Shown here in pieces: positions 5,974 through 40,178 of a DNA stretch of 42,052 nt; position 1 is the first letter of the stretch, and every line of letters starts with the position of its first letter. The stretch spans positions 1 through 42,052 of the forward strand of contig JANXTB010000125.1 of NCBI GenBank assembly GCA_025356415.1, in the 5' to 3' direction. Source of the stretch: Hyphomicrobiales bacterium (GTDB taxonomy: Bacteria; Pseudomonadota; Alphaproteobacteria; Rhizobiales; Beijerinckiaceae). The position numbers and the translations under genes were made by a program. Under the pieces are notes generated by a model. It worked only from the letters and a program-made list of their open reading frames with translations, made no database searches and was not told where the DNA came from.

Positions 5974-6060
5974 TCTGGACATAACCTGCGTCTCGGGCGA
6001 GGCTGTCGCAATGTGCGAAGACGAGATGCGGCATCGGCCGGATCGCCCGGGGAGACATGG

Positions 6061-7887: not shown

Positions 7888-7896
7888 GGATTTCAG

Positions 7897-9108: not shown

Positions 9109-9194
9109 AATCTGAATAGCTGGCGATCTCTGACACGCTGGCGTGCTGGCATTTGAATTGCACTGGGGTCAAGGCAACTCGGAAGGACGCACAG

Positions 9195-11685: not shown

Positions 11686-11736
11686 GCTGCGCCCCTTCTG
11701 TAGGTGCTCAAGATACGTGATGCATGCTGTACTGCC

Positions 11737-12951
11737 CTATTCGATCTGTTCCGATTTCTCCCACATCGAGATGAGGGAGGCGCGTTTCACGAAGTCGAGG
11801 TGACGAGCGGGATCCGCATTGATGCGACGCAATTCGTCGAGCCGCTCGCGGCGAACTTCGGGATCTTTTTCCTCGAGCAGTTTCTTGTTGGCGATCGATT
11901 GCGCCTGGACATACTCGATGGCGGTGAGACGGCGCTGGCGGTCGTAACGATCGAGCAGGCTGTCGGCATCGGCGCCTTTCGATATTTCGATCAGCTTCCG
12001 CGCCAGCGTGATCCCGTCCTGGAAGCCGCTGTTCATGCCCATGCCGCCGATCGGATTGTTGACATGCGCGGAATCGCCCGCGAGCACGATGCGACCGCTG
12101 CGGAAGCTCCCCGCCACGCGCTGGTGAACATTGTACATGTTGCGATGGACGATCGGATAAGGCCCCGCGTTCATGCATTCGCGAAAGCGGGCGTTGATCC
12201 ATTCGTCGCTCATCACCTCCTCGTCGGTCTCCTCCGGCTTCGCCGGGAAAACGCAGCGCCAGAGGCCCTTTCCATCCTCGCCCGGCACCTGCATCAGGGA
12301 GACCCAGCGGTCCGGATGCGAGCAATAATTACGCAAGCGAAAACCGTGGATCTCTCCGAGATTTGTCGGCGTCGAAACGATGTTGAAACGCTCGGGCCAT
12401 GTGAAGCCTTCGAAACTGGCGCCCGTCGTCTTGCGGACGATGCTGCGCCCACCATCGCAACCGACCAGATAATCGCCGCGATGCGTGACCACTTCGCCGC
12501 TTGCATCGCGCACATCGCATTCGACATGGTCGGCGGTCTGGCGAACTTCGACGACCTCCACCGGCCGGTGCAGGACGAAGTCCGGATAGCGCTGCGCCGC
12601 CTCAAGCGTCGTGTAGACGGTTTTATGCTGCTCGAGCTGTATGACGTAGGGATGGCCTGAAACTTCCGACAGACGCCCGTAATCGAACTCGGCGACCACC
12701 TCATCCTTCACCCGGTCTCGCCATTGGAAGTACTGCGATTTGAAACCTTGTTCCAGTATGCGTTCGGTCAGCCCGAGCTCCTCGAACAAATCGAGCGTGG
12801 AAGGCTGCAATGTTGCGGCTCGATGATCTTCCGCCGGCTTCGGCGCCATGTCGAACAGCGTCGCCTTGATGCCGTTGCGCGCGAGGTAAAGGCCCGTGAC
12901 AGCCCCGACAGGGCCCGCGCCCGCGATCAGCACATGCTTGACTTTGTCCAC
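11737..12951 (-). CDS. FAD-dependent aromatic-type monooxygenase
   Basis: About 404 residues, single-component class A flavoprotein hydroxylase (PHBH fold). The Rossmann motif GAGPVG is at 11-16, the central motif GCDGGRS at 164-170, and the ribityl-binding motif GDSAHVNNPIGGMGMNSG at 292-309. These enzymes insert one oxygen atom into phenols or hydroxy-N-heteroarenes using NAD(P)H and O2, and a few members also open pyridine rings. It sits 31 bases downstream of the GST gene in the operon of the ring-opening amidohydrolase. It is a paralogue of the monooxygenase at 21818-23020, with the same HVNNP-GGMGMN signature. The substrate is unknown. Confidence 0.9.
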   Translation of the reverse strand: MDKVKHVLIAGAGPVGAVTGLYLARNGIKATLFDMAPKPAEDHRAATLQPSTLDLFEELGLTERILEQGFKSQYFQWRDRVKDEVVAEFDYGRLSEVSGHPYVIQLEQHKTVYTTLEAAQRYPDFVLHRPVEVVEVRQTADHVECDVRDASGEVVTHRGDYLVGCDGGRSIVRKTTGASFEGFTWPERFNIVSTPTNLGEIHGFRLRNYCSHPDRWVSLMQVPGEDGKGLWRCVFPAKPEETDEEVMSDEWINARFRECMNAGPYPIVHRNMYNVHQRVAGSFRSGRIVLAGDSAHVNNPIGGMGMNSGFQDGITLARKLIEISKGADADSLLDRYDRQRRLTAIEYVQAQSIANKKLLEEKDPEVRRERLDELRRINADPARHLDFVKRASLISMWEKSEQIE

Positions 12952-12982
12952 GTCGACTCTCCCGAATGCGTGTTCCAGATTT

Positions 12983-13600
12983 CTAGTGATGCGCCGACTT
13001 GACGAGGGCTCGCTGGACGGCGGGACGCGCTGTCATCCCGGCTCGCCAGCGCTTGATGTTCTCGGCGCCGAGCCCGTCGATCGCGGCCGCGATGTGCGGC
13101 AGCAGCACGAGTGGAAGCAACGCGAAATCGGCGACGCTCAACTCGTCGCAAAGAAAGTCCCGACCTGCGAGTTCATCGTCGATGAAGCGCAAATACGCAT
13201 TCATGCGCTCGCGGAAAACGGCCACGACGCCCTCGCCGGATTCGATTTTCGATCCCAAAAACATCGTCGTGGATGCAGCCGCGACATCGCTCAGCGCCAT
13301 CCACGAAAACTGCTCGGCCCTGATGCGCCGGACTTGATCCTGCGGGATCAGCCGCCCCGCCTTTCGTGCAAGATAGAAAATCATCGCGCCCGATTGCGTC
13401 ACCGTCACAGGGTTGCCGTCAACGCCATCCGGGTCGACGAGCACAGGCACGTGGCCGAGCGGATTGAGCCGCCGGAATTCCGGCCTGTCCTGGTCGCGCG
13501 ACGCGAAGTCGAGCAGCCGCAGCTCATATGGAAGGCCCAGTTCCTCGATGACGAAGAGAGCGCGCCGTCCGTTTGGCGCCGCCGCCGTATAGAGTTGCAT
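12983..13600 (-). CDS. Glutathione S-transferase family protein
   Basis: About 205 residues: an N-terminal thioredoxin-like domain (MQLYTAAAPNGRRALFVIEELGLPYELRLLDF, with NPLGHVPVLVD near 46-56) and an all-helical C-terminal domain (DELSVADFALLPLV). NPxGxVPxL is the usual glutathione-binding turn. It resembles YfcG/Nu-type or maleylacetoacetate-isomerase-like GSTs. The ATG at 13600 overlaps the upstream TGA as TGATG, so the two genes are translationally coupled; a GTG one codon earlier is possible. In catabolic clusters such GSTs act as cis-trans isomerases or reductive enzymes. The role here is inferred only from position between the ring-opening hydrolase and the monooxygenase. Confidence 0.85.
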   Translation of the reverse strand: MQLYTAAAPNGRRALFVIEELGLPYELRLLDFASRDQDRPEFRRLNPLGHVPVLVDPDGVDGNPVTVTQSGAMIFYLARKAGRLIPQDQVRRIRAEQFSWMALSDVAAASTTMFLGSKIESGEGVVAVFRERMNAYLRFIDDELAGRDFLCDELSVADFALLPLVLLPHIAAAIDGLGAENIKRWRAGMTARPAVQRALVKSAHH

Positions 13601-14637
13601 CACGGCGCCGCCTCCGCGCGCAGGATGCAGCAGATGGTTCCGCCGCCCAGAGGCGCCTGTTGAACAGGATCGAAGGTACTGAAGATGCGGGTCGTATGCA
13701 GCGTGGCGCCGAGCACGCCCGAGAGCGCCGCACGCACGTGCTTCTCCGGCGGAGTCGCTGACCCGAAGATCGTTGTCGGCGCGCCAGCGACGTTGCCAGA
13801 GGAATGGACGCCGAGCTTGGCGATTGTTGCGACGAGGCGTCCGGTGTCGAGTTCGCCGTCCGCGTCAAGCGCCAAGCCGGCGCCGACCAGCATTCGCTTC
13901 AGCGAGCGCGCGTCGAGAAGATCCTGCGTGATGACGTTGCAGGCAAAGAGATCGCCGCCCGCTCCTGCGCGATTGCCGATCGCGATCACTTCTATGTTGC
14001 GGATGGCTGGGCCGGTGAATGTCTGAACCCGCTTCGCATAAAGTTCGCCGTTCGTGACGATGGCGTCGTCGCGCAGCGCGCCCTTGTCCACTTCGCCGAT
14101 AGCGAGGCCCGCGCCGAGCGCCGCCGCCGCCCTGCCCTTGCGCGCACGCAGGCCGACGTCGCCGGTCGTGGGTTGAGGCACGTTCACGATGATGGTTTCG
14201 ACATCGCCCGGGCTCATGCCGCCGTCACGCAGCGCGGCTTCCACAGCCGTCTGCACATCGAAAGCGAAGGCCGCCGAGCCGATGCTGGCTTCATCCGGCG
14301 GCGCGATGCGCGCAAGGCCGATTGCGAGCCGTCGACCGGCGCCGCCAGCGTTCCCGTCCGTATCGATGAGAGCGTAGCCGCAAGGCGTCGATGCGCCCTC
14401 TGCCCCGATCACCGTGATGAATTCGGAGCGGTCCGTCAGGCCCTTTTCGGCTAGCAGCTGCTCGACGGCGCCGCGCGCCTTTTCACGGGAGCCATCCGTA
14501 TATTCGCCGGCTACGCGCATCAGCAGCGCCAGCCGCCGGATCTGCGCGGATCCACGCTGATCGAGCGGTTTGCGAAGCGCGGAAAGATCGTCCGGCGCCT
14601 GCATATCGAACTGGATGACATCGACGCTCATCCTCAA
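13600..14637 (-). CDS. Ring-opening amidohydrolase (AtzD/barbiturase family), divergent active site
   Basis: About 345 residues, the usual length of cyanuric acid hydrolase/barbiturase. The threefold repeat layout is recognisable: MRVAGEYTDGSRE near 40-52, GAEGASTP at 78-85, NVPQPTTGD at 152-160, IRNIEVIAIGN at 212-222, IAKLGVHSSG at 272-281, KHVRAALSGVLGA at 299-311 and the C-terminal GGGT at 331-334. Aligned by eye to AtzD, two of three Ser-Lys dyads look changed: Lys42 becomes Arg41, Ser85 becomes Thr84 (next to Ser83), Lys162 becomes Asn152, and the Ser233 region becomes QTFTG. Lys296 and Ser349 are kept as Lys274 and Ser320. It may act on another cyclic amide or by another mechanism. First gene of a four-gene operon, divergent from marR. 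ATG 14631 is an alternative start. Confidence 0.8.
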   Translation of the reverse strand: MRMSVDVIQFDMQAPDDLSALRKPLDQRGSAQIRRLALLMRVAGEYTDGSREKARGAVEQLLAEKGLTDRSEFITVIGAEGASTPCGYALIDTDGNAGGAGRRLAIGLARIAPPDEASIGSAAFAFDVQTAVEAALRDGGMSPGDVETIIVNVPQPTTGDVGLRARKGRAAAALGAGLAIGEVDKGALRDDAIVTNGELYAKRVQTFTGPAIRNIEVIAIGNRAGAGGDLFACNVITQDLLDARSLKRMLVGAGLALDADGELDTGRLVATIAKLGVHSSGNVAGAPTTIFGSATPPEKHVRAALSGVLGATLHTTRIFSTFDPVQQAPLGGGTICCILRAEAAP

Positions 14638-14752: not shown

Positions 14753-15238
14753 TTGAAAAACTATTTCGAACGACAATTCGAGAACGAAGAATTCCTGCTC
14801 TTCCGCCTGTCGAGCGTGTCTCGCCGTGTGGCCAACGCCTGCGCGGAGGTCTATCTGGCCGAATTCGGCATTACGGTGCCGGAATGGCGGCTGATGGCGC
14901 AGATCGGCAGGTTCGGCTCGATCTCGGCAAAAGACATCGCCGAAAAAATCTCGATGGACCGCGTCGCCATCAGCCGAGCTGCAGCAAAGTGTTTGGCGGA
15001 CAAGCTGATTTCTGAATCGCCGCATCCGGCCGATCGTCGCAGCAAAGTTCTGTCTTTCACGCCGAAAGGCAAGGCGCTCTACAAGAGCGTCATTCCGCGC
15101 GCCTGCGAACTGGCGAATGTCATCGAGTCCGGCCTCACCAAAACCGAAGCCAAGCTGTTGAAGGTTCTGCTCGACAAAGTGGATGCGTCAGTCGCCAAGA
15201 TCGCGCCGACGCTTGCCCGCGACGAGGACGCCGCATAA
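14753..15238 (+). CDS. MarR-family transcriptional regulator
   Basis: About 161 residues with the winged-helix MarR layout: N-terminal dimer helices (FRLSSVSRRVANACAEVYLAEFGIT), the recognition region SAKDIAEKISMDRVAISRAAAKCLADKLI near 57-85, and the wing HPADRRSKVLSFTPKGKALY. The DxRS-K/V-L-TxxG wing signature is intact. MarR proteins of catabolic clusters usually repress until a phenolic or acidic ligand binds (family knowledge). It starts at TTG 14753 with a weak ribosome site. Divergent from the ring-opening amidohydrolase and 22 bases upstream of a C-C hydrolase gene, it probably controls both directions through the palindrome at 14663-14678. Confidence 0.88.
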   Translation: MKNYFERQFENEEFLLFRLSSVSRRVANACAEVYLAEFGITVPEWRLMAQIGRFGSISAKDIAEKISMDRVAISRAAAKCLADKLISESPHPADRRSKVLSFTPKGKALYKSVIPRACELANVIESGLTKTEAKLLKVLLDKVDASVAKIAPTLARDEDAA

Positions 15239-15260
15239 CGAAATTCAAGGGTACAGAAAA

Positions 15261-16322
15261 ATGGCCGATCCACGCCTCGTCATCGCCCGTCATTTCCTCT
15301 CGCGCTTCACCGTCAACGGCGTTGCCGCAAGCGACTTCGAGGACGTGCTGAACTCGCTCGAGTCCTGGGACGACTGGTGCAGCGCGTGGTCGCGGCGCGC
15401 GTCAATCCATGAAAACATGGGGCGCGAAGCGCTCGCAAAACAGCAGTTCATCAGCGCCGCCGATCATCTCTGCCGCGCAGCCGCGACCTACCATTTCGCG
15501 AAATATCTCTTCGTGCAGGATATCGATCAAATGCGCGCGGCCCACATGAGGGCGGTGGAATGCCTCGACCTTGCGTTGCCGCATCTCGACCCGCCCGGCG
15601 AGCGCGTGCTCATCCCCTACGAAGGGCACTTATTGGCTGGCACGCTGCGCAAGCCGAAGGGCGTCGAGCGCCCGCCGATTGTGCTAATGACCATGGGGCT
15701 CGACTCGACCAAGGAAGAACTCCTCACCTTCGAAACGAACTTCCTCGACCGCGGCATAGCGATCCTCGCCTTCGACGGCCCCGGCCAGGGCGAGGCCGAA
15801 TATGACCTGCCCATCAGGGCCGATTACGAGAATGTCGTAGGCCCGGTGATCGACTGGATCGAGGCGGAGCGGAAAGACATCGACGCGGGCCGCATCGCCG
15901 TCTGGGGCATCAGTCTCGGCGGCTATTACGCCCCGCGCGCGGCGGCTTTCGACAAGCGCATCAAGGCCTGCATCTCAAATTGCGGCCCCTATGACTGGGG
16001 CGATCTTTGGGACAAGCTGCCGCCGCTCACCCGCGCGGCGTATATCAAGCGAAGCTTCAGCAGCAGCCCTGAAGAAGCTCGGGAAAAAGCGCAGGGCTTG
16101 TCGCTGAAGGGCGTTGCCGAAAAGATCACCTGCCCGCTCTTCGTCATCGCTGGCGGTCTTGATCGGCTGTGCCCTCCGGAAGACGCCGAACGTCTCGCCG
16201 CCGAGGCCAAGGGCCCGACCGAACTCGTCTACATTCCCGATGGCGATCATGTCGCTCACAATCGGTTTTACATGTACCGCAACCAGTCAGCAGACTGGCT
16301 CGCCGAACGACTCGCACGCTGA
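15261..16322 (+). CDS. Alpha/beta hydrolase, 2,6-dihydroxypseudooxynicotine-hydrolase-like
   Basis: About 353 residues: a helical N-terminal cap (residues 1-110) then an alpha/beta-hydrolase core. Nucleophile Ser218 sits in WGISLGGYYA, the acid Asp301 in GGLDRLCP and His330 in DGDHVAHN. Cap length, PPGE at 111-114, the nucleophile elbow and the HVAHN ending match DHPON hydrolase, which cleaves a C-C bond next to a pyridine ring in nicotine breakdown. The related protein at 32124-33359 shares the same pattern. The ATG at 15261 follows AAGGG and is 22 bases after marR, so they form an operon. Cleavage of a C-C bond in a ring-derived ketone is likely but unproven; FrsA-type esterases are the other option. 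Confidence 0.8.
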   Translation: MADPRLVIARHFLSRFTVNGVAASDFEDVLNSLESWDDWCSAWSRRASIHENMGREALAKQQFISAADHLCRAAATYHFAKYLFVQDIDQMRAAHMRAVECLDLALPHLDPPGERVLIPYEGHLLAGTLRKPKGVERPPIVLMTMGLDSTKEELLTFETNFLDRGIAILAFDGPGQGEAEYDLPIRADYENVVGPVIDWIEAERKDIDAGRIAVWGISLGGYYAPRAAAFDKRIKACISNCGPYDWGDLWDKLPPLTRAAYIKRSFSSSPEEAREKAQGLSLKGVAEKITCPLFVIAGGLDRLCPPEDAERLAAEAKGPTELVYIPDGDHVAHNRFYMYRNQSADWLAERLAR

Positions 16323-18195: not shown

Positions 18196-18840
18196 TCAAA
18201 CCACAGTGCAATAGCGCTTCAGAGTCGCGAGGTAGTCCATCACCTCGCGCTCGGAAACAACGTCCGCGTATTTCGCATTCATGTCGAAGAGATTGGCCTC
18301 GTGCGGGGAAGGATGCCTGTCGCCGCATGCATCAGCCACAACCATCGTCCTGAAACCATGCGACATGGAATCGACGCAGCTTGCGCGAACGCAGCCGCTG
18401 GTCGAGAGGCCGGTCAGGATGACGGTATCTATTCTGCCGGCCGTCAGCGTCGAGGCAAGAGATGTTCCAAAGAATGCGCTCGGGTACTGCTTCGTCACCA
18501 CGATTTCATCGCGGAACGGCGTCAATCCATCCGCGAATTCCGCGGTTCTGCGCCCCTTGATAAAATTATGCAGCGGCTTCGACTTTTCATAAAAACGGCC
18601 GCCATTGATGCCGCCTTCTTGATAAACAACTTCGGTCAATACGACGGGGACACCAGCTGCGCGCGCCGCCTCGCGGATGCGAAGCGCAGATTGGAGCGCG
18701 CCTTCGACACCGGCGTAGAGTTCGGATGCCGGATCGAAATAGGCGCGCGCAAAGTCGACGAGAACCAGCGCGGGGCGTTCTCCAAAGCCGATTTTCCCAC
18801 CAAAAGCACGCTTGAAATTTTCAATAAGGTCATCGGTCAT
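18196..18840 (-). CDS. Isochorismatase-fold amidohydrolase (maleamate/N-carbamoylsarcosine type)
   Basis: About 214 residues with the full cysteine-hydrolase triad: Asp29 in VLVDF, Lys117 in VTKQYPSAFFGT and Cys150 in TSGCVRA. The N-terminal pattern ALVLVDFARAYFDPASELYAG closely matches N-carbamoylsarcosine amidase and maleamate amidohydrolase NicF rather than nicotinamidase or true isochorismatase. It should release ammonia (or ammonia and CO2) from an amide or ureide. The ATG at 18840 overlaps the leuD-type stop as ATGA, with CGGGAG upstream, so it is the last gene of the operon. Placed after a LeuCD hydratase, a maleamate-like substrate fits well. Confidence 0.85.
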   Translation of the reverse strand: MTDDLIENFKRAFGGKIGFGERPALVLVDFARAYFDPASELYAGVEGALQSALRIREAARAAGVPVVLTEVVYQEGGINGGRFYEKSKPLHNFIKGRRTAEFADGLTPFRDEIVVTKQYPSAFFGTSLASTLTAGRIDTVILTGLSTSGCVRASCVDSMSHGFRTMVVADACGDRHPSPHEANLFDMNAKYADVVSEREVMDYLATLKRYCTVV

Positions 18841-19457
18841 GCTGACGGCTCCCGAAAAAGCCAAGGCTGCTGCTCACGGTGAAGCGCCTCGAAGGCGGCG
18901 ATCGCGTCGCCTTTTTCTCTCAGGATCACGTCGGTCTCGTCCCATCCATTCAGCAGCGCAGTCCGCTGACCATCGGGAAGATCGATCGAGGCGACCTTGT
19001 CGCCGGCGACGGACAAAAGACGCGTCTCAAGGTCGACAGAGAACAAGGCGCCCTGCTCTGCTGCAGCGCCAAGGCGCATGACAATCTCTTCTGGAAGCGC
19101 GAGCGTCAGGAGACCATTCTTGAGCGCGTTGCCCGCAAATATTTCGCCGAAATCAGGCGCGATGACACACCGGATTCCAAAATCGGTGAGCGCCCACACC
19201 GCTTGTTCGCGGCTCGATCCGCAACCAAAGCCCGCGCCGGCTATCAGGATCTTCGCCTGTGAGAACGGCGGCTGATCGAGGATGAACCCGGGCGCAGGCT
19301 GCCCCTGCGCGGTAAAGCGCCGATCGTGAAAGAGGTAGCGGCCAAGACCATCGCGCTCCATCAACAGAAGATAACGAGCGGGATAAATCGCGTCCGTATC
19401 GATATTTCGTTCCGGCATGAAAGCCGCGTGTGATTCAATGGCGACGAAGGGCGTCAT
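18837..19457 (-). CDS. leuD-like: LeuD-type small subunit of an aconitase-family hydro-lyase
   Basis: About 206 residues, the swivel domain of isopropylmalate isomerase-type enzymes: [14 protein letters not shown] at 17-30, [14 protein letters not shown] at 77-90, and [17 protein letters not shown]. The serine/arginine of GSSRE binds the substrate carboxylate. It overlaps the LeuC-type gene by four bases (ATGA) and the next gene likewise, so subunits are made in step. In this setting (ICL-type lyase, amidohydrolase, no leuA or leuB nearby) a catabolic role such as maleate, citraconate or dimethylmaleate hydratase is more likely than leucine synthesis. Confidence 0.88.
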
Positions 19458-20866
19458 GCATTCGAACCCATGAGTTTGCGCACGTCGGTCAGTCGACCTG
19501 TAACCGCAGCGGCGGCCGCCATCACAGGGCTCATCAGGTGGGTGCGTCCACCCACTCCCTGTCGTCCCTCGAAGTTGCGGTTCGACGTGGATGCGCTCCG
19601 TTGTCCAGGCGCGAGCGTGTCACCATTCATGCCGACGCACATCGAGCAGCCCGGCTCCCGCCATTCAAAGCCGGCTTCGCGGAAGACGGCGGCGATCCCC
19701 TCCTGTTCGGCCTGCTCGCGCACGAGGCCCGACCCCGGCACGACGATGGCTTTGACGCCCTCGGCGACGTGGCGGCCCGCCACGACAGAAGCTGCGGCGC
19801 GCAGATCCTCCAAACGGCTGTTGGTGCAGGATCCGATGAAAACGACGTCGATGCCGATGCTCTCCAAAGGCATGCCGGGATGCAGCCCCATATAGGCAAG
19901 CGCGCGAATTTGCCGTTGGCGGCGCGCCAGCACAGACTCTGTCTCGGGATCTGGCGCACGCGCCCCGATCGGGAGCGCGTCCTCCGGCGATGTGCCCCAG
20001 GTGACGAAGGGCTCAACCTCGCCGGCATCGAGCGTGATCTCGCTGTCGAAAACCGCATCGGGATCGGACGGCAGGGTTCGCCAATACGTAACAGCGCGGT
20101 CGAACATGGCGCCTTTCGGCGCCATGGGACGACCTTCAACGTAAGTGAAAGTGGTCTCGTCCGGCGCCACCAATCCAACCCGGGCGCCGGCCTCGATCGA
20201 CATGTTACAGAGCGTCATACGCTCCGCCATCGACATGGCGGAGATTGCAGGCCCCGCATATTCGACCGCATGTCCCGCTGCGCCATTCGCGCCGATCCGT
20301 GCGATCAGAGCAAGAGCGATGTCCTTGGCGGTGATGAAAGGATGTGGCTGCCCCACGATATTGACGCGCATCGTGCGGGCGCGCTGTTGGCGGATCGCCT
20401 GCGTGGCCATCACGATCCCGCATTCGGATGCGCCTATCCCGAAAGCCAGCGCGCCAAAGGCGCCATGGGTTGACGTGTGGCTGTCACCGCAGGCCAGCGT
20501 CATGCCGGGCAGAGTGAAACCCTGTTCAGGGCCGATCACATGGACGATGCCCTGCCGGCGATCATGCAGGGGAATGAACGGAATCTTATGCCGAGCGACA
20601 TTTTCAACAAGACGCTGCGTCTGCGCCCTCGCCATCGGATCGGCGATGGGCAGATGACGATCAACAGTCGGCACAGCATGGTCTGGCACTGCGAGACTGG
20701 AGTCCGCACGATGCGGCGTCCGGTTCTTCTGTTCGAGCGCGACGAAAGACTGCGGCGTGCTCACTTCGTGCAGAAGGTGTCCGTCCACGTAGAGCAGTGA
20801 AGAGCCGTCATCGTAATCGCAGATGACGTGGCTCGACCAGAGTTTGTCGTAGAGCGTCCTGCCCAT
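19454..20866 (-). CDS. leuC-like: LeuC-type large subunit of an aconitase-family hydro-lyase
   Basis: About 470 residues carrying the [4Fe-4S] site: the Cys of [16 protein letters not shown] near 340-350 and the pair in [11 protein letters not shown] near 405. The N-terminus ([31 protein letters not shown]), [13 protein letters not shown] and [15 protein letters not shown] are all LeuC hallmarks, so the enzyme should be active. It starts 18 bases after the ICL-family lyase gene. LeuCD relatives include maleate and 2,3-dimethylmaleate hydratases in pyridine and gentisate breakdown (known), and the context favours such a role. Leucine biosynthetic duty cannot be excluded without seeing whether the genome has another leuCD. 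Confidence 0.9.
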
Positions 20867-20884
20867 CGTTACGCCTCATGCCAC

Positions 20885-21748
20885 TCAAGGAACCTGGGCG
20901 AATTTCTTTTCGAAATCCCAGACGTCCTTGAAGCCGAGCAGTTCATTAAATTCTGCGAAGGAATAAAGTTCGATGTCCTTGCTGGTCACGCCGTTCTTCT
21001 GCAGGTCGGAATAGGCTTTCCTCAGCGCGGCGCCTGCGGCGAGAAATCCAATCGCTGGATGGATCGCCACGGCATAGCCGAGCTCTTTCAACCGATCTGC
21101 CGAGAGCAAAGGCGTGCGACCGCCGTTGACCATATTGGCGAAGAGCGGCGCCTTGATCGCGTCCGCGATCGCACGCATCTCGCCCTCGGTTTCCGGAGAT
21201 TCAACGAAGACGATATCGGCGCCGGCTTTCGCGAAGGCTTGACCGCGACGGATCGCCTCGTCGAGGCCGAGACCGGTGCGCGCATCCGTGCGCGCAATGA
21301 TCATGAAATCGTCGCTGCGCCGGCTGTCCACCGCGACCTCGATCTTGCGGAGCATGTCGTCGAGGGGAACGACGCGGCGGTTCGGCGTATGTCCGCACTT
21401 CTTCGGAAACTCCTGATCCTCGATCTGGATCGCGGAAACGCCGACGTCTTCGTACCCACGCACAGTATAACGCACGTTGAGAAGGCCGCCGTAGCCGGTG
21501 TCAGCATCGGCAATCACCGGTCGCTTCGTCTGCTTCACGATCTGGCCGATCCGCTCCACCATATCGCGGTACGTCGCGATGCCAGCGTCCGGCAAGCCAA
21601 GATAGGACGCGACAGTGCCATAGCCGGTCACATAGAGGGCGTTGAAATCGATCGTGTCAGCAATGAGCGCCGAGATGAGATCGAACACGCCTGGCGCCAA
21701 AATGAATTCGCCGTTCTGGATCGCCTTCTTGAGTTTGGGGTCGGCCAT
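20885..21748 (-). CDS. Isocitrate lyase/PEP mutase-family C-C lyase
   Basis: About 287 residues, a TIM barrel. Metal-binding Asp residues are seen in ADADTGYGG near 80-88, and the flexible catalytic loop is FPKKCGH near 114-120. The Cys of K-K/R-C-G-H marks true lyases (isocitrate, 2-methylisocitrate, 2,3-dimethylmalate lyase) as opposed to PEP mutase or oxaloacetate hydrolase. The product is normally pyruvate or glyoxylate plus a carboxylate. It sits directly upstream of LeuCD. The same pair, a hydratase of the LeuCD type plus an ICL-family lyase, ends nicotinate fermentation in Eubacterium (DmdAB plus dimethylmalate lyase), a precedent for hydrate-then-cleave logic. Confidence 0.88.
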   Translation of the reverse strand: MADPKLKKAIQNGEFILAPGVFDLISALIADTIDFNALYVTGYGTVASYLGLPDAGIATYRDMVERIGQIVKQTKRPVIADADTGYGGLLNVRYTVRGYEDVGVSAIQIEDQEFPKKCGHTPNRRVVPLDDMLRKIEVAVDSRRSDDFMIIARTDARTGLGLDEAIRRGQAFAKAGADIVFVESPETEGEMRAIADAIKAPLFANMVNGGRTPLLSADRLKELGYAVAIHPAIGFLAAGAALRKAYSDLQKNGVTSKDIELYSFAEFNELLGFKDVWDFEKKFAQVP

Positions 21749-21817
21749 CTTTTGCTGCTCTCTGTGGTCAGTAATTTGTGAGTTTCTGGCTTATGCCGAC
21801 GCAGTCAACTTGGCGCT

Positions 21818-23020
21818 CTACTCGATTGTCTCGAGCTCTCTGAGCGACTCGATCATCGATGAACGCATCAAATAGGCCTTGTGTGCGGCCGGATCGGCGA
21901 CAGTCGCGCGAAGCTCGTCGTGATAGGCCTTGCGCGCAGCAGGATCGACCTCGTTCATGATGCGCCTGTTGCGCAGCGTCTGCGCCTGCACGGCTTCAAG
22001 GGCCGCCTTGCGGCGCTGCCGCTCATAACGGCCCATGATATCGAGCGACGCGCCCTTCCAGACCTCAGCGAGCTTTTCAGTCAGGTTGACTGCATCCTGG
22101 ATGCCGCCGTTCATTCCCATCCCGCCGAGCGGATTGTTGACGTGGGCGGCGTCGCCCGCAAGGAAAATGCGGCCGGAGATATAACGCTGCGCGACGCGCT
22201 CGTTGACCTTGTAGGCGGTGGCGTGAGCGATATCGTAATCGTTCGGGTTGGCGCAGACTGCTTGCAGGCGCCGCTGCATCAACGCAGGGTCCTTGATTTC
22301 GTCCTCGCTCAGGTTGGGATCGGTCGGCAGAAGAACGCGCCACAGCGTCGGCGTGCGCAGCAGGACGGCCCACTCGCTCGGATCCGTCATGTAGGCGATG
22401 GTGGCGAGATTTTCGATATGATTTTCGAACGGGAAACTCGTCGACATCGACAGGAAGATTTCGGGGATCGTCTGGCCTTCGAACGGAATGTCCAGCACCT
22501 TGCGGATCACGCTGCGTGCGCCGTCCGTCGCGATGAGATAACGTGCGCGCATGGTCTCTCCAGAGCCATCCGCGCGGCGCACCTGCAGACTGACGCCGTC
22601 ATCATCCTGCGCAACATCGACAGCCTCGGCCTCGTAGACGATTTCGACGCAATCGTCAGCCTCGAGAATCGTGCGCAGCTCCTCCGAGAGTTTCCACTGC
22701 TCGCACTGGAGCCGATACGGATGTGCGGTCTCGCCAGCAAGCAGCGACAGCTCGAAAGTCGCCACGACGCCCTCGCGCCGATCGCGGAACTGCCACTGCG
22801 GCGCGATCAGGCCGCGCTCGATCAGCCGGTCGGTGACGCCGAAGCGATCGAGGATGTCGAGCGTCGGTGGATGAAACGTCGATGCGCGGAGATCTTTCGG
22901 AAGCTCGCGGCTCGCCTCGATAAGAGTTGTCCTGATCCCCGCCTTCCCGAGGCAGGCTGCGGCCACGAGACCGCACGGGCCAGCCCCGACAATGATCACT
23001 CGATCTTCGATTTTCGACAT
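21818..23020 (-). CDS. FAD-dependent aromatic-type monooxygenase
   Basis: About 400 residues, class A flavin monooxygenase: GAGPCG at 12-17, a central DGARS motif, and GDAAHVNNPLGGMGMNGG near 275-292. It starts at ATG 23020, with GAGG about 9 bases upstream, instead of the longer frame from 23089. Its paralogue at 11737-12951 shares the whole layout. No ring-cleavage dioxygenase is present in this cluster, so this enzyme either only hydroxylates, or, like 2-methyl-3-hydroxypyridine-5-carboxylate oxygenase, also opens the ring; the second idea is speculative. The TGTCCGGACA palindrome 54 bases upstream suggests its own regulated promoter. Confidence 0.9.
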   Translation of the reverse strand: MSKIEDRVIIVGAGPCGLVAAACLGKAGIRTTLIEASRELPKDLRASTFHPPTLDILDRFGVTDRLIERGLIAPQWQFRDRREGVVATFELSLLAGETAHPYRLQCEQWKLSEELRTILEADDCVEIVYEAEAVDVAQDDDGVSLQVRRADGSGETMRARYLIATDGARSVIRKVLDIPFEGQTIPEIFLSMSTSFPFENHIENLATIAYMTDPSEWAVLLRTPTLWRVLLPTDPNLSEDEIKDPALMQRRLQAVCANPNDYDIAHATAYKVNERVAQRYISGRIFLAGDAAHVNNPLGGMGMNGGIQDAVNLTEKLAEVWKGASLDIMGRYERQRRKAALEAVQAQTLRNRRIMNEVDPAARKAYHDELRATVADPAAHKAYLMRSSMIESLRELETIE

Positions 23021-23073
23021 CGACGCCAACCTCAAACCATTTGCATCAGAATGATGCGCCACTGTGTCCCAGA

Positions 23074-23083
23074 TGTCCGGACA
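23074..23083. promoter_or_regulatory. TGTCCGGACA operator-like palindrome
   Basis: Perfect 10-bp palindrome centred 59 bases before the monooxygenase start. The same decamer lies upstream of the MFS gene at 26552-26561, and a one-mismatch form lies upstream of gntR at 25019-25028. This fits a GntR-family dimer site. Confidence 0.55.
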
Positions 23084-23267
23084 AATCAACCAAGCTTGTG
23101 AAGATTCACGTCCACCGCGACGAAAAGAAGCGCCGCCTTGAGTGCTAAAATTGACAAAAAGCCTTGCAAATCCGAGCTACCAAGCCGCCCCTCTGTATTT
23201 GTCAGTTCGTGCAAAGATGTATGGACCACTTCACGGTTTGTGAGGGACGAGCCTTGGTTTGGCCCCT

Positions 23268-24014
23268 TTAGAAATCCATCAGCAGGCGGCCGAAGCCCTG
23301 CTTCTTGTCGGTAATACTGTTCGCCCGCAACGCATGCCAATAGGTCGCGGTATTGATGGCGATGACCGGCTTGCCGAGCCATAATTCAGCCGCCGCCGCC
23401 AACTCGACCATCGACATGTTCGTGCCGATCTGGACGATGGCGTCGACATCGTCGCCATCAAGTTGGCGCAGCGTCTGACGCAAGGTCGCGGTGGTGACTT
23501 CCGCGATGTTGATCCAAGACTGGCATTGCAGCGCGACGTCTCGCACGACCTCAAAGCCCATGTCACGGAAATAGCCGATGACCTCGAGGTTCATCGACGG
23601 CCAATACGGGGAGACAATGGCGATTTTTTTGACGCCGCCATAAGCTTTGAGCGCCTGAGCGCAGGCATGACTGCCAATGCTCACATCAAGTCCGCACTCG
23701 TCCTTGATGGACTTTATGAACGCGTCGGCGCCCTTCGCGCCGCCAAAAAATGTCACCGCCGACATGCCCATCACCATATAGTCGGGCTCGCAGGTCATGA
23801 CGCTGCGAACAGCTTCCAAGGTATTTCCGGCAATCACTTTCGTCGCCTCATAGGCTGACTCGTTGCTGATCGCGCTGGCGTTGGGCGTGAAGATCCGGCT
23901 GTAGTGATTGGTGACGCCAATCGGTCGCATGGCTTCGAAATCGGGCTGCACGATCGTATTTGTGGATGGACCAAGAACGCCGAACTTGCGTCTCCAGCCT
24001 TGTGCGTCAGTCAT
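23268..24014 (-). CDS. Maleate isomerase/arylmalonate decarboxylase-fold protein without catalytic cysteines
   Basis: About 248 residues, the normal size for the Asp/Glu racemase superfamily branch of maleate isomerase (NicE) and arylmalonate decarboxylase. Conserved features: GVLGPSTNTIV at 12-22, the first loop MVMGMSAVTFFGG at 80-92, and the C-terminal AIVQIGTNMSMVE and GKPVIAINTATYWHALR to FGRLL. The two positions that hold Cys in isomerases and racemases are Met84 (next to Ser85) and Gly197, so neither catalytic Cys is present. The ATG at 24014 has GAGGAG 8 bases upstream. First structural gene after gntR. It could be a decarboxylase or ligand-binding enzyme using other residues. A 247-base gap separates it from the monooxygenase. 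Confidence 0.75.
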   Translation of the reverse strand: MTDAQGWRRKFGVLGPSTNTIVQPDFEAMRPIGVTNHYSRIFTPNASAISNESAYEATKVIAGNTLEAVRSVMTCEPDYMVMGMSAVTFFGGAKGADAFIKSIKDECGLDVSIGSHACAQALKAYGGVKKIAIVSPYWPSMNLEVIGYFRDMGFEVVRDVALQCQSWINIAEVTTATLRQTLRQLDGDDVDAIVQIGTNMSMVELAAAAELWLGKPVIAINTATYWHALRANSITDKKQGFGRLLMDF

Positions 24015-24091
24015 GTCCGTACTCCTCAATGCGTCTCGGGCAAAAATCAGTCGCGAGGTTTCATGCAGCCTCCGCCGCAAGCCGATCAGCT

Positions 24092-24121
24092 ATTGTACGT
24101 ACAAAAAAAACTGTAAGGCAA
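24092..24121 (-). promoter_or_regulatory. Candidate promoter for the racemase-fold gene
   Basis: On the minus strand, TTGCCT (24121-24116) and TACAAT (24097-24092) are 18 bases apart, about 78 bases before the start at 24014. A perfect TGTACGTACA palindrome (24094-24103) overlaps the -10 box. The GACAA/TTGTC element at 24131-24151 lies just upstream. Confidence 0.4.
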
Positions 24122-24130
24122 ATTGGTTTT

Positions 24131-24151
24131 GACAAAATTAGGCAACTTGTC
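24131..24151. promoter_or_regulatory. GACAA...TTGTC inverted repeat, copy 1
   Basis: Twenty-one bases with GACAA and TTGTC ends and a GGCAACTTGTC right half, placed between gntR and the racemase-fold gene. It shares the CAACTTGTC half-site with the copy at 25003-25022 upstream of gntR. Two copies flanking the regulator gene suggest binding sites of this GntR protein. Confidence 0.5.
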
Positions 24152-24181
24152 TGATCTGGTCAGCCTAGATCTCAGGGGCGC

Positions 24182-24958
24182 TCAGGCCTCGTTGGACCGG
24201 CGACGATCGATCTGCATCCGGTAAGTAAATTGGTCACCCCGATGCCAGTTGAACGATGCGATCAGCGTCCCGCTCCGGGTGACGTAGCGACGCAGCAATT
24301 GGAGCGACAGGCTCCCTTCCTCGAGGCCAAAACAATTCGCAACCTCGCGCGGCATGCTAGCGGCCCGTATCTCCTGGTAGACGTGGTCGATGGTGCAGCC
24401 AGTCCGCTCTTCAAGAATGGAATAGAACGGCGCCTTTTCCTGCTTTGGAAAAAGAGCCACCACATCAGCGTATTCACTCGGCACGTAGGAATCGATGTAG
24501 CAGATGGGCGTTCCGCCGGGCTTGGTCCAACGCACGCCGGCGACATGCAACCATTTCTGCTTCGGCTTCGCCTCGAGACGGGCCAAGGTTTCAACATCGA
24601 GAACGACAGGTTCGATCCTGTGAATGACGAAATGAGTGTCGAGCGAATTCTGGAAAAGGTCGGAAATCGACTGGAAGGACTGCACGTAGCGCGCGTTCGA
24701 TTCAGCGGAGATCACTGAGGTTCCAGCGCCCTGCCTGCTTCGCACCATTCCTTGTTCGATCAGGCGGCGCAAAGCTTCGCGCACAGTATGCCGGCTCGTC
24801 GAAAATTCCTCGCTGAGTTCCGCCTCTGTCGGAAGGAGGCAGCCAATCGGATATTGGCCAGTGGTGATGCGCTGCCGTAGTTCATTCGTAATGCGTGCAT
24901 AAAGCGGCGCATCGAGATTGAAGGCGTTCTTCGAGGGCTTCTTTTTCGCTTGCGGCAT
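24182..24958 (-). CDS. GntR-family regulator with UTRA ligand domain (HutC type)
   Basis: About 258 residues. The N-terminal winged helix spans roughly 18-82 (PLYARITNELRQRI, LPTEAELSEEFSTSRHTVREALRRLIEQGMVRSRQGAGTSV) and the UTRA domain follows from about 95 to the end (GTPICYIDSYVPSEY, SLSLQLLRRYVTRSG). HutC/FarR-type members sense pathway metabolites and usually repress. It lies between the MFS gene and the catabolic genes on the same strand, with inverted repeats upstream (25003-25022) and downstream (24131-24151), so autoregulation and control of the downstream operon are likely. Confidence 0.9.
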   Translation of the reverse strand: MPQAKKKPSKNAFNLDAPLYARITNELRQRITTGQYPIGCLLPTEAELSEEFSTSRHTVREALRRLIEQGMVRSRQGAGTSVISAESNARYVQSFQSISDLFQNSLDTHFVIHRIEPVVLDVETLARLEAKPKQKWLHVAGVRWTKPGGTPICYIDSYVPSEYADVVALFPKQEKAPFYSILEERTGCTIDHVYQEIRAASMPREVANCFGLEEGSLSLQLLRRYVTRSGTLIASFNWHRGDQFTYRMQIDRRRSNEA

Positions 24959-25002
24959 GAGTTTGTCAATTATTCCAGTTGCTCCGCAATCTTATAGATT
25001 CA

Positions 25003-25028
25003 GACAAATTGCGCAACTTGTCAGGACA
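25003..25028. promoter_or_regulatory. Overlapping operator elements upstream of gntR
   Basis: GACAAATTGCGCAACTTGTC (25003-25022) is a near-perfect 20-bp palindrome with one mismatched pair. Its right end runs into TGTCAGGACA (25019-25028), one base different from the TGTCCGGACA sites before the MFS and monooxygenase genes. A TATAAG -10-like box lies at 24996-24991 on the minus strand, so the element covers the -35 region of gntR. Confidence 0.55.
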
Positions 25029-25055
25029 TGGCCGTCCTCAGGACGAAACGCAAAG

Positions 25056-25081
25056 GGGGCAGGTCGATCGCGACCTGCCCC
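25056..25081 (-). terminator. Hairpin terminator after the MFS gene
   Basis: Perfect 11-bp stem ggggcaggtcg / cgacctgcccc with a 4-base loop atcg, 31 bases after the MFS stop on the minus strand. The minus-strand continuation has a short T run (ctttgcgttt). It separates MFS transcription from gntR. Confidence 0.65.
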
Positions 25082-25112
25082 TGGACATTCTAGCAGCGAC
25101 TGCGCCCTACGT

Positions 25113-26468
25113 TCAGCGGGCCGCGCCGGTCGCGGGCTGCGCGGAGCCTGCGGTCACAGGCGCCGTGGACCTTGGCATCAACAACATCGCGATAGAAGCA
25201 AGCACCGCGGGGATTGCGCAGGCCATGAAGACCCCGCTGTTGGTCCAATGCAGCGCCAGCAGGAATGCTGCGATGAGCGGCCCGACGATCGATCCCATGC
25301 GGCCGAGCGCCAACCCCCAGCCGAGCCCGGTTGAACGCGCGGACGTCGGATAGAATGCAGCTGCATAGCCGTTCACGCCGGTGACCGACGCGATCAGGAA
25401 GAAGCCCGCGCAGAATACAGTCACGAAGACCAGGTAGATGCTGGAGCTCACGAGGCCCGTCAGGATGATGAAAGCCGCCATGCCCAGGAACGTCGCAGCC
25501 AATGCGAAATTCCCTTTCTTGTCGACGAAGTGACCGAGGGCGAGGCCGCCAACCAGACCGCCGATCTGGAAGAGCGCCGTCGACGCGACTGCTTCACGAG
25601 CGCTCGCGCCCGCCGAGGACATCAGCGTCGGCAGCCATTGCGCCAGCAGGAACAGATCGAGGATGCCCATGAAGAAGGCGACCCACAGGAGAACCGTCCC
25701 GACGGCGCGTCCATCGGCGAACAACTTGCGCACGGGAACGCCGCTTTCGCGCACGTCTTCCACCGTAAAGCGCGTCGCCTGCACGTTCGGAATGTCAGGT
25801 GCGATGCGTGTGACAATGTCGCGAAGCGCCTTGGACGAGCCGTCCTGCAAGGCAAGCCAACGGGGCGACTCGCGAAGCACGAAAAGCAAAAGCACGGCGA
25901 GGCACAACGGAAGCAGCGCGCCGGCCCAGAGAACCGAACGCCAGCCATAAAGCGAGATCAGTTCGGCGGACATGAACGCGCCGAGCGACGAGCCTACCGG
26001 ATTGGCGAGCGACACTAGCATGACCATCGAGCCGCGACGCTGTTCGGGCGCATAGTCGGACGCCATCGTCAGCGCGGTCGGGATGCCCCCGCCGAGACCA
26101 ATGCCGGTAAGAAACCGCCAGACCATAAGCTCATTAAGCGTTGACGACTGAGCGGCCGCGATCGAGAACAAGCCGAAGATGCTGACCGAGATCAGGATGG
26201 CGATCTTGCGGCCGAAGCGATCGGCCACGGGGCTGATCAGGAATGACCCTAGAAAAAGGCCGAACAGGCCGGCGCTGAAGACCGGACCAAGCGCGGGACG
26301 CTGCACCTTGAATTCAGCGATGAGCGCCGGCCCGATAAAACCAATGGACTGTGTGTCAAAACCATCCACGGCAACGATGAGCGCGCAGAGCGCGATCATG
26401 CCGATCTGAAACTTGCTCAGCTTTTTTCGGTTCATCACCGAACTTAGTTCTATGGCTGCATCGCTCAT
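25113..26468 (-). CDS. MFS transporter, aromatic acid:H+ symporter type
   Basis: About 451 residues with twelve predicted membrane segments. The AAHS signature DGFDTQSIGFIGPAL sits in helix 1 (near 34-48); the loop 2-3 motif appears as PVADRFGRKIAI, and helix 4 has RFLTGIGLGGGIPTAL. The intramembrane Asp of DGFD is needed for acid transport in PcaK, BenK and NicT relatives (known). It should import an aromatic or heteroaromatic acid with protons across the inner membrane. It is the first gene of the minus-strand cluster, has its own terminator and carries an operator palindrome 82 bases before its start. Confidence 0.9.
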   Translation of the reverse strand: MSDAAIELSSVMNRKKLSKFQIGMIALCALIVAVDGFDTQSIGFIGPALIAEFKVQRPALGPVFSAGLFGLFLGSFLISPVADRFGRKIAILISVSIFGLFSIAAAQSSTLNELMVWRFLTGIGLGGGIPTALTMASDYAPEQRRGSMVMLVSLANPVGSSLGAFMSAELISLYGWRSVLWAGALLPLCLAVLLLFVLRESPRWLALQDGSSKALRDIVTRIAPDIPNVQATRFTVEDVRESGVPVRKLFADGRAVGTVLLWVAFFMGILDLFLLAQWLPTLMSSAGASAREAVASTALFQIGGLVGGLALGHFVDKKGNFALAATFLGMAAFIILTGLVSSSIYLVFVTVFCAGFFLIASVTGVNGYAAAFYPTSARSTGLGWGLALGRMGSIVGPLIAAFLLALHWTNSGVFMACAIPAVLASIAMLLMPRSTAPVTAGSAQPATGAAR

Positions 26469-31173: not shown

Positions 31174-31890
31174 CTAGACTGTCTTCTTCGCCAGCCCGAT
31201 CACATGCTCGCGCATGAGCACTTCCGCGCGCCAGCCCTCGCCAGCGGCGATGAGCTGGTAGAGGCGGTGATGATCGTCATGCCGGCGGCGCACGTCGTCA
31301 TGCTTGAATGATACGATATGGCGATGCGTCGAGCCCGGCATGTTGAGCGTGAGACGCACGGCTTCCATCAGCATGCGGCTTTGCGCGGCGGCGAGGATGG
31401 CGTCGTGGAACATGACGTTCATGGCGCGATAGGCGATGAGGTCGCCCTCGGTCAGAATGTCGTGCTGAAGAATGACGTCGCCATCGCGCAACGCCTGCTC
31501 CATCGCGACGCGCTGTTCCTCGGCAAGCCCGCGCTCGGACGCCAAGCGGCACGCCAGCCCTTCGAGGCTTGCGCGAATCTGGTAAGCGTCGAGCACCGCC
31601 TGCATCGGAAATTCGCGCACGGTGAAACCGCGATTGTGCGCATAGTCAACGAGGCCTTCCGCCGCGAGCGCATGCAGCGCGGCGCGCGTCGGCGTGCGCG
31701 AGACGCCGAGCGCGCGTGACAGATGCACTTCGTTGATGCGCTCGCCCGGTGCGAATTGTCCCGTCAGGATCGACTCGCGCACCCGGTCAGCGGCGGAAAT
31801 GGAGCGGGGCGCGGAACGTGCAGCCTCCTCGACACCCTCGATCTCGAGCGTCTCCGAAAGTGTGGCGCCTGGCGGTCCATGCTCGCTCAT
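31174..31890 (-). CDS. GntR-family regulator with FCD ligand domain (FadR type)
   Basis: About 238 residues: N-terminal winged helix (ADRVRESILTGQFAPGERINEVHLSRALGVSRTPTRAALHALAAEGLVDY, about 34-83) and an all-helical FCD domain after it. FCD metal-site residues are probably among Asp/His in FHDAIL, HRHIVSF and DDHHRLY. The ATG at 31890 with GAGGGG upstream is preferred over a GTG two codons earlier. It is divergent from the hydrolase/ABC-importer operon with about 230 bases between, so it most likely controls that operon in response to a carboxylate ligand. Confidence 0.88.
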   Translation of the reverse strand: MSEHGPPGATLSETLEIEGVEEAARSAPRSISAADRVRESILTGQFAPGERINEVHLSRALGVSRTPTRAALHALAAEGLVDYAHNRGFTVREFPMQAVLDAYQIRASLEGLACRLASERGLAEEQRVAMEQALRDGDVILQHDILTEGDLIAYRAMNVMFHDAILAAAQSRMLMEAVRLTLNMPGSTHRHIVSFKHDDVRRRHDDHHRLYQLIAAGEGWRAEVLMREHVIGLAKKTV

Positions 31891-32045
31891 ATTCACCCCT
31901 CGCTACCCCAAGTGAATACATCAGCGAGGATCAACCGAGCAAGTGCATGCTGGTGCGCATAAATTCGGCACGAAAGCCCGCGTTTTCGGCAGAATGCACG
32001 TGAAATATGGTCCACTTTGGCTCAAGCTGACATTATCATTCGCCA

Positions 32046-32059
32046 AACTGTGTGCAGTT
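32046..32059. promoter_or_regulatory. Inverted repeat in the gntR/catabolic operon gap
   Basis: AACTG-tgtg-CAGTT, 64 bases before the probable end of the leader of the plus-strand operon, lies between the divergent GntR gene and the hydrolase gene. It is the only clear dyad I see in the gap; an operator role is a guess. Confidence 0.3.
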
Positions 32060-32123
32060 CGATTGACAGAGCCACAATCCCGGGCGACGCTCCGGGGTGG
32101 CTTTCTTGGACCGGGACGAACGA

Positions 32124-33359: not shown

Positions 33360-33368
33360 GAGGGCGAC

Positions 33369-36973: not shown

Positions 36974-36978
36974 CGCGC

Positions 36979-38771: not shown

Positions 38772-38830
38772 CGTCACTGGCAGAAGCAAAACTTGATACA
38801 AGAACCATGGCTAATCATCGGAGAGGGCAC

Positions 38831-40096: not shown

Positions 40097-40112
40097 TAAT
40101 CAAGAGCTGATC
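40085..40112 (+). repeat. 14-bp tandem duplication at the receptor stop codon
   Basis: atcaagagctgata is followed at once by atcaagagctgatc, 13 of 14 bases identical, so the last codons IKS-stop are present twice. The second copy is untranslated. It looks like a recent slippage duplication. Confidence 0.8.
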
Positions 40113-40126
40113 GCCGGATACGAACA

Positions 40127-40150: not shown

Positions 40151-40178
40151 GCCTTCTCCTTTTTATGAGCATGCGAAC

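Follow-up and report, generated by a model that had tools for sequence, protein, structure and literature searches.

The aerobic nic pathway of nicotinate breakdown uses the enzymes NicC, NicX, NicD, NicF, and NicE; Eubacterium barkeri ferments nicotinate anaerobically through an enamidase and a B12 mutase, with DmdAB and Dml; and cyclic imides are degraded by an imidase and a half-amidase. Here we describe a gene module that partly resembles each of these systems. It lies at positions 18196-26468 of a 42,052-nucleotide stretch (the window, which always means this whole length) of contig JANXTB010000125.1, from the genome assembly GCA_025356415.1 (4.62 Mb, 429 contigs, 93% complete) of a Hyphomicrobiales bacterium of the Beijerinckiaceae. 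A gene for a GntR regulator is followed by genes for a protein of the maleate isomerase/arylmalonate decarboxylase fold (Amd), a flavin monooxygenase (FMO), a C-C lyase of the isocitrate lyase (ICL)/phosphoenolpyruvate (PEP) mutase superfamily, the two subunits of a LeuCD-type hydratase, and an isochorismatase-fold amidohydrolase (Iso). We read Amd-FMO-ICL-LeuC-LeuD-Iso as a GntR-controlled catabolic operon for an N-heterocycle, with a hydrolytic, dioxygenase-free ring opening and a plug-in lower pathway, and give this reading as a whole a probability of about 0.5. The gene set itself is real and conserved, presumably a catabolic operon, and the lower half of the pathway is likely.

The module shares with the nic pathway a flavin monooxygenase, a maleamate-type amidohydrolase, and a maleate-isomerase fold; it differs in that its genome has no NicX-family match, its Amd lacks the cysteine pair, and it ends through LeuCD and a lyase. 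As in E. barkeri, a LeuCD-type hydratase would be followed by an ICL-superfamily lyase acting on an alkylmalate, but the module has a flavin monooxygenase and a cysteine amidohydrolase in place of the enamidase and the B12 mutase. The logic of a PuuE-type imidase plus a half-amidase, known from cyclic-imide degradation, is found contiguous with LeuCD-ICL on the plasmids pJE1 and pTomTYG65b, and the module extends it with FMO and Amd on the upstream side and with an ending by hydratase and lyase. In the portion of the published account drawn on here, the hxn nicotinate pathway of Aspergillus nidulans starts with a flavin oxidation, and a cyclic imidase related to PuuE (HxnM) acts later, followed by an amidase (PMC9304392). 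The likeness to the pathway proposed below lies in the flavin monooxygenase start, the hydrolytic opening of a cyclic imide, the amide hydrolase, and the lack of a ring-cleavage dioxygenase; however, hydroxyglutarate is the end point of hxn, HxnN is described as an FAAH1-like amidase, the ring is reduced first, and that portion of the account mentions neither LeuCD nor an ICL-family lyase nor Amd (PMC9304392). No description of the gene set stood among the matches listed in the Creative Commons-licensed PMC literature, outside which most subscription papers lie, and neither Sphingomonas sp. JE1 nor TomTYG65 was named there.

Gene layout and the lower block

The eight open reading frames, those named above and one for a major facilitator superfamily (MFS) transporter, all lie on the minus strand and are free of internal stops, and Pfam and NCBIfam profile searches matched them to families, confirming the eight co-directional genes of the preliminary description of this DNA. 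The regulator (24182-24958; PF00392 and PF07702) is a GntR/UTRA protein of the HutC type, followed by Amd (23268-24014; Amdase, PF17645), FMO (21818-23020; FAD_binding_3, PF01494), the lyase (20885-21748; PEP_mutase/ICL family), LeuC (19454-20866; Aconitase), LeuD (18837-19457; Aconitase_C), and Iso (18196-18840; Isochorismatase, PF00857). Measured at likely ATG starts, the spacing is 167 bp for GntR-Amd, 247 bp for Amd-FMO, 69 bp for FMO-ICL, and 18 bp for ICL-LeuC, and LeuC/LeuD and LeuD/Iso each overlap by 4 bp, which agrees with the gaps of under 20 bases or overlaps noted earlier for the last four genes. None of the eight proteins matched a ring-cleavage dioxygenase family in these searches, bearing out the claimed absence of such an enzyme from the module.

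The MFS gene (25113-26468) was also counted as part of the module at first. It has the same direction, and its best NCBIfam match is the aromatic acid/H+ symport family, under the cut-off (TIGR00895, 348.5 bits). However, a terminator-like hairpin of 11 pairs, nine of them GC, lies 3′ of its stop, between MFS and gntR (25081-25056), and an MFS homolog stands within 6 kb of only four of 114 related FMO genes. Since the hairpin parts it from gntR, MFS is probably a neighboring transcript, although co-directional; the hairpin itself is suggestive at most, the scan having found 11 terminator-like sites in 9.6 kb where 9.1 were expected.

The lyase carries the K-K-C-G-H loop reported for it, at residues 116-120, and keeps the conserved acidic residues. 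At position 236 it has Leu, as do all 19 rows of its clade; Arg stands there in the three methylisocitrate-type PDB chains compared (1mum, 3eoo, and 4iqd), Tyr in petal death protein, and Gly in dimethylmalate lyase. The Arg presumably binds the extra carboxylate of methylisocitrate. Since the module lyase lacks this residue, which is conserved in methylisocitrate lyases, its sequence favors alkylmalates as substrates. Its score of 266.9 bits against the TIGR02317 (prpB) cut-off of 354.4 places it outside PrpB, and 3fa3, compared for a grouping with 2,3-dimethylmalate lyase, forms a long branch outside the module lyase clade.

LeuC keeps the Cys residues of the GSCTNS and CSMC motifs, which we take to be its cluster motifs. 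Both subunits score above the equivalog cut-offs for isopropylmalate isomerase (TIGR00170 and TIGR00171), so one might suppose that LeuCD and the lyase belong to leucine or 2-methylcitrate metabolism and stand here by chance. We consider this very improbable. Among several other LeuC genes in the genome, one on contig C84 shares 57% identity with that of the module, has a leuD nearby, and adjoins rplS, trmD, and rimM (names assigned by eye), presumably the usual alphaproteobacterial leucine neighborhood; the module LeuCD is therefore not the leucine enzyme, and the possibility raised at the outset, that it was the only isopropylmalate isomerase of the genome, does not hold. In a tree of 16 LeuC proteins the module copies (the window's and those of L033, L034, L035, and L077) group in a single clade (support 1.000), with the C84 copy outside, and all five module copies of LeuD have an IYPAR-type loop or a close variant, versus DTDMIIPKQYL in the C84 copy. 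The gene order is also kept across genera, and the lyase is without the Arg and the score of a methylisocitrate lyase. We thus rejected leucine biosynthesis as the role of the module genes. Elsewhere in the genome (contig C209, 5722-9714 of locus L052) there is a second LeuC-LeuD-ICL cluster with TctC, 34%-45% identical to the module, with one in-frame TAG in its LeuC match.

With numbering from the TTG codon at position 18864, Iso has Asp37, Lys125, and Cys158, which are matched in 26st and 3ot4 and which we take to be the catalytic triad of isochorismatase-fold amidohydrolases. Among its best solved relatives are N-carbamoylsarcosine amidohydrolases and 3ot4/3uao, labeled putative isochorismatase, which we take to be maleamate amidohydrolase. 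The maleamate-type cysteine amidohydrolase described earlier is confirmed in its fold and in its Cys, and such an activity is predicted from them. The hydration and C-C lyase ending proposed with it is likewise supported by the distinct LeuCD clade and the kept lyase motifs.

The lower genes also recur as a block. On the plasmids pJE1 (Sphingomonas sp. JE1) and pTomTYG65b (Sphingobium) they form a contiguous Iso-PuuE-PuuE-LeuC-LeuD-ICL, in a stretch without an annotated FMO; the pJE1 LeuC falls inside the module LeuC clade (support 0.944) and the IYPAR loop is also present in the pJE1 LeuD. A Skermanella plasmid carries leuC-leuD-ICL alone, directly behind a tripartite tricarboxylate transporter. 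These arrangements make LeuCD-ICL look like a plug-in block for diacids, which may be fed by an imported acid, by an imidase plus half-amidase, or by FMO-Amd-Iso. In full, the pJE1 and pTomTYG65b stretches (L262 and L259) carry genes for HMG-CoA lyase, isochorismatase, two polysaccharide-deacetylase-family proteins, leuC, leuD, the lyase, a zinc dehydrogenase, and an acyl-CoA synthetase, in this order, and constitute a plasmid-borne catabolic block.

Conservation and types of related cluster

The lyase is no marker of the module on its own, since in most of the best 80 of 571 loci matched in named genomes it has no FMO or Iso nearby. ICL-LeuC-LeuD-Iso stands in the same order in the window and in L033, L034, and L077; two genomes of the same genus and one Rhodobacterales isolate have this block at 62%-87% identity. 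The module combination is not due to chance, because the same combination is kept in other genomes. Two same-genus genomes (G003 and G027) have FMO-ICL-LeuC-LeuD-Iso in order at 72%-87% identity, and a third (G030) has the module set in two separate pieces. In G027 an MBL gene lies between FMO and ICL; an MBL hydrolase was rejected as a required part, being absent from the window genome and from G003 at E 1e-30. The Rhodobacterales isolate, strain BW5 (L077), has Amd2-ICL-LeuC-LeuD-Iso, with FMO-Amd-PuuE upstream in the locus, and Agrobacterium rosae, Rhizobium straminoryzae, Kandeliimicrobium, and Pseudooceanicola have FMO-Amd-PuuE together with ICL-Iso, without LeuCD in the 20.9-kb stretch.

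We collected FMO units (at least 240 bits and at least 36% identity, duplicates removed) from the window and 150 relative genomes, 114 in all; the FMO tree comprises 112 proteins, two having been left out for internal stops or length. Within 6 kb of the 114 FMO genes we find Amd 41 times, Iso 29, ICL 21, LeuC 15, LeuD 14, PuuE 11, and AtzD six times. In 428 kb of control DNA from 22 loci there are no Amd, ICL, or AtzD genes, one Iso, and three PuuE; the controls include L056 and L057, chosen for LeuC, so that their LeuC and LeuD rates are inflated.

Four types of cluster stand out. Type A (12 units, including the window's) has ICL in 10, Amd in nine, Iso in nine, PuuE in seven, and LeuC in four; in six of its units the contig or stretch stops more than 1 kb short on one side or both. 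Type B (eight units) has LeuC, ICL, and an Amd-fold gene in all eight, an isochorismatase-fold gene in seven, and LeuD in six. Its module proteins are paralogs, ~23%-56% identical to those of the window; its Amd-fold protein keeps the first Cys (8/8), and the catalytic Cys of its isochorismatase-fold protein is replaced (TNGGVAST) in the four sequences compared. Because Arg236 is kept in all eight type B lyases, a tricarboxylate-like substrate may be hinted at for this type. The type B units are L048, L068, L159, L160, L164, L168, L169, and L170. In type C (21 units) we see Amd in 19, TctC in 16, and Iso in 12, with ICL near one (L189) and LeuCD near none. The other recurrent families there are NMT1-like binding protein, NmrA, DUF1330, Lrp, and transketolase types (one representative of each), with no dioxygenase among the recurrent families, although a rarer one may be present. 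Type D (seven units) includes the second FMO of the window (FMO2; 11737-12951) and has a gene of the cyanuric-acid-hydrolase/barbiturase family in six. Flavin oxidation is therefore repeatedly paired with hydrolytic partners.

FMO2 belongs to a second flavin cluster, on the minus strand at 10663-14637, which comprises a cyanuric-acid-hydrolase/barbiturase-family protein (PF09663), GST, FMO2, and TctC; the pair of FMO2 and the AtzD-like gene is kept in six of the seven type D units.

Ring opening and the proposed pathway

FMO is an intact PF01494 enzyme in which GAGPCG, ATDGARS, and LAGDAAH are present, presumably the motifs of class A flavin monooxygenases. Its nearest solved relatives are PnpA (6ain) and HspB (7da9; 6-hydroxy-3-succinoylpyridine 3-monooxygenase), both of which we take to be hydroxylating enzymes, and the lower-ranked ones include the ring-opening types rifampin monooxygenase and a Baeyer-Villiger enzyme. 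FMO need not be the ring opener.

Amd has the maleate isomerase/arylmalonate decarboxylase fold, with Met84 and Gly197 at the positions of the catalytic Cys residues. Neither position is Cys in any of the 12 aligned Amd members, and both are Cys in the four MaiA-like Amd2 proteins; a later structure alignment of Amd does not include L073. We take the Cys pair to be catalytic in the isomerase and the second Cys in the decarboxylase; the mutants C194S and C188S of enzymes of this fold are named in titles. Because both catalytic Cys are replaced, isomerisation by the known mechanism is ruled out for Amd, as judged from its residues, and the role of isomerisation or decarboxylation first assigned to this racemase-fold protein is not supported. 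Our search for a MaiA-type isomerase with both Cys found 10 Amdase-family genes in the genome, the best 31% identical to the Agrobacterium Amd2. Of the 41 FMO units with an Amd-fold gene within 6 kb, 36 have one without Cys at both positions and five have one that keeps the first Cys; a Cys-less Amd lies within 500 bp of 31 of the 114 FMO genes.

A hydrolytic opener is suggested by PuuE, a family of cyclic-imidase- or allantoinase-like proteins. PuuE is linked in seven of the 12 clade-A FMO units, and the gene of G003 recurs in G027 (93% identity, on a separate contig) and in G030 (77%). These relatives and the sphingomonad plasmid operons together suggest that a cyclic imide is opened hydrolytically, which would yield a half-amide. 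The proposal that FMO opens the ring, or that the substrate arrives already opened, was therefore incomplete, for it omits hydrolytic opening of a cyclic imide, suggested by PuuE beside the relatives and on the plasmids. There is no PuuE inside the module. Among 11 PuuE-family members in the genome (E 1e-20), two lie on the plus strand of the window, upstream of the module at a distance of ~8-10 kb: PuuE 1 (34489-35379; TIGR03212, 109.7 bits, below the cut-off) and PuuE 2 (36083-36973; PF01522). They are 33% and 34% identical to the G003 protein and are not orthologs of the relatives' linked gene, and they are possible ring openers.

In the pathway we infer, with its substrates, its products, and its order of steps, FMO would oxidize a heteroaromatic ring to a cyclic imide or lactam, directly or by tautomerisation. 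A PuuE-type cyclic imidase, the Cys-less Amd, or both would then open this ring by hydrolysis, the assignment of the opener being uncertain. Iso would hydrolyze the resulting maleamate-like half-amide to ammonia and a maleate-type diacid, probably alkyl-substituted; LeuCD would hydrate the diacid to an alkylmalate; and the ICL-family lyase would cleave this to a short acid and, as the 2-oxo acid, either pyruvate or glyoxylate.

The ring could instead be oxygenated and split by FMO itself, as 2-methyl-3-hydroxypyridine-5-carboxylate oxygenase splits the pyridine ring in vitamin B6 breakdown, leaving an enamide for Iso and then LeuCD and the lyase. The integrity of the PF01494 enzyme, its more distant ring-opening relatives (rifampin monooxygenase and the Baeyer-Villiger enzyme), the lack in this genome of a close ortholog of the relatives' imidase, and the type C clusters, which hold FMO and Amd (in 12 of 21 also Iso) but no other recurrent ring opener, all speak for this. 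We nonetheless think it doubtful: the two closest solved relatives, PnpA and HspB, presumably hydroxylate, and no role would be left for a Cys-less Amd that so often adjoins FMO. An equally doubtful possibility gives the opening to that Amd, which would hydrolyze or tautomerize the FMO product and so replace both dioxygenase and imidase. Its fold is kept while both Cys are lost, it lies within 6 kb of 36 of the 114 FMO genes versus none in the 428 kb of controls, and type C reduces to FMO plus Amd in 19 of 21 units (Iso in 12), its other recurrent families not being dioxygenases. To our knowledge, though, no hydrolase belongs to the Amd fold family; PuuE genes stand near or beside Iso in the relatives and on the plasmids; and Amd is not within 6 kb in three of the 12 clade-A units (L034 and L039, on cut contigs, and L035, where it is farther off). 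A broader proposal, in which the Cys-less Amd is a new ring-opening enzyme acting on the hydroxylated product of FMO, a large radiation of FMO+Amd(+Iso) clusters in Proteobacteria forms a dioxygenase-free, hydrolytic N-heterocycle family, and the branch in the window ends via LeuCD and an alkylmalate lyase, is likewise doubtful.

Under an aerobic nicotinate-type scheme, an unlinked dioxygenase would open 2,5-dihydroxypyridine and the module would handle only maleamate and maleate. The likeness of Iso to 3ot4/3uao and of FMO to HspB fits such a scheme, as do LigB-family genes, found in 11 of 12 genomes searched and in three copies in the window genome, on contigs other than that of the module. 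But PF02073, which we take to be the family of the 2,5-dihydroxypyridine dioxygenase NicX, has no match in the window genome (93% complete) and none over the cut-off in 11 same-genus genomes including it (G030 has a weak one, below the cut-off), and the maleate produced would normally need an isomerase, where Amd has no Cys pair. We therefore rejected a NicX-dependent nicotinate route for this genome and regard the scheme as quite improbable; the comparison with nicotinate breakdown drawn in the preliminary description stands as an analogy only.

Several observations weigh against a dioxygenase-free, hydrolytic operon as we read it. In G083, a clade-A carrier of another genus, a contig other than that of the module bears a full NicX-family gene, so that an unlinked dioxygenase is possible in some carriers; this also fits the nicotinate-type scheme. 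The G003-type PuuE has no close ortholog in the window genome (best 36%, in a genome that is 93% complete); this leaves three options: a PuuE paralog serves, the gene falls in the portion that the assembly lacks, or the opener is Amd or FMO. Around all 114 FMO genes PuuE is barely enriched (0.96 versus 0.70 per 100 kb of control), its linkage being found in clade A only, and for 78 of the 114, some of them on cut contigs, the 6 kb on either side hold no Cys-less Amd. LeuCD lies within 6 kb in only four of the 12 clade-A units (those of the window, L033, L034, and L035), and since five uncut or nearly uncut ones (L036, L038, L040, L041, and L042) lack it, the hydratase is not obligatory in cis. 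Nor is the amide step universal, because the type B isochorismatase-fold protein is without its Cys.

Regulation, neighboring genes, and significance

A GACAA...TTGTC palindrome, GACAAATTGCGCAACTTGTC, lies 5′ of gntR (25003-25022) as a candidate operator, and a second copy lies 5′ of Amd (24131-24151), adjoining a promoter-like site (24121-24092), the only one found in a scan that expected 2.7. The window has two matches versus 0.06 expected, and one of 100 shuffles reached two, with a pattern derived from these very sites; outside the module, a looser form also occurs at 3168. Across 28 module-type loci (507 kb), GACAA-N9..12-TTGTC has nine matches versus one in 400 kb of controls, six of them upstream of module genes and three not (window 3168, L040, and L075). 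Related palindromes lie upstream of FMO or ICL in L037, L039, L072, and L082. Without mismatches the palindrome occurs in six of 111 upstream regions of module genes versus none of 2000 control windows, and with up to one mismatch in 22 of 111 versus 61 of 2000; this enrichment is biased, because the motif comes from the window, the controls are mostly coding DNA, and divergent pairs are counted twice. The window contains the HutC-type operator GTnTAnAC twice, in both cases away from the module. Together these data hint weakly that one GntR repressor may control the genes from Amd to Iso through the candidate palindrome.

Other genes in the window and in related loci are of similar kinds. The two PuuE genes belong to a stretch (31174-41665) with a GntR regulator, an alpha/beta hydrolase, an isochorismatase, OsmC, PuuE, FAH, PuuE, and a branched-chain amino-acid type ABC transporter (the last identified by eye), possibly a further cyclic-amide route. 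Two FrsA-like alpha/beta hydrolases (15183-16322 and 32097-33359) appear to resemble 2,6-dihydroxypseudooxynicotine hydrolase, and at 6013-10232 there are co-directional genes for a thiamine diphosphate-dependent decarboxylase-like protein, a flavin mononucleotide-dependent alpha-hydroxyacid dehydrogenase, and TctC. In L076 (12295-14932), L077 (14354-17566), and L083 (6037-9984), a luciferase-type PF00296 monooxygenase (RutA-like by eye) and an amidase adjoin ICL-Iso, in L077 with a nitroreductase as well; this is possibly another upper pathway into the same lower block.

Aerobic ring breakdown is usually located in genomes through ring-cleavage dioxygenases, and flavin-started hydrolytic pathways of this kind would escape such searches. 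Database names such as “3-isopropylmalate dehydratase,” “arylmalonate decarboxylase,” and “isocitrate lyase/PEP mutase family” may mislead here. The module offers six enzymes that are directly testable, with named strains and plasmids. Together with its relatives it suggests a flavin-started family of pathways that open nitrogen-containing rings by hydrolysis, one branch of which ends in a hydratase and a lyase.

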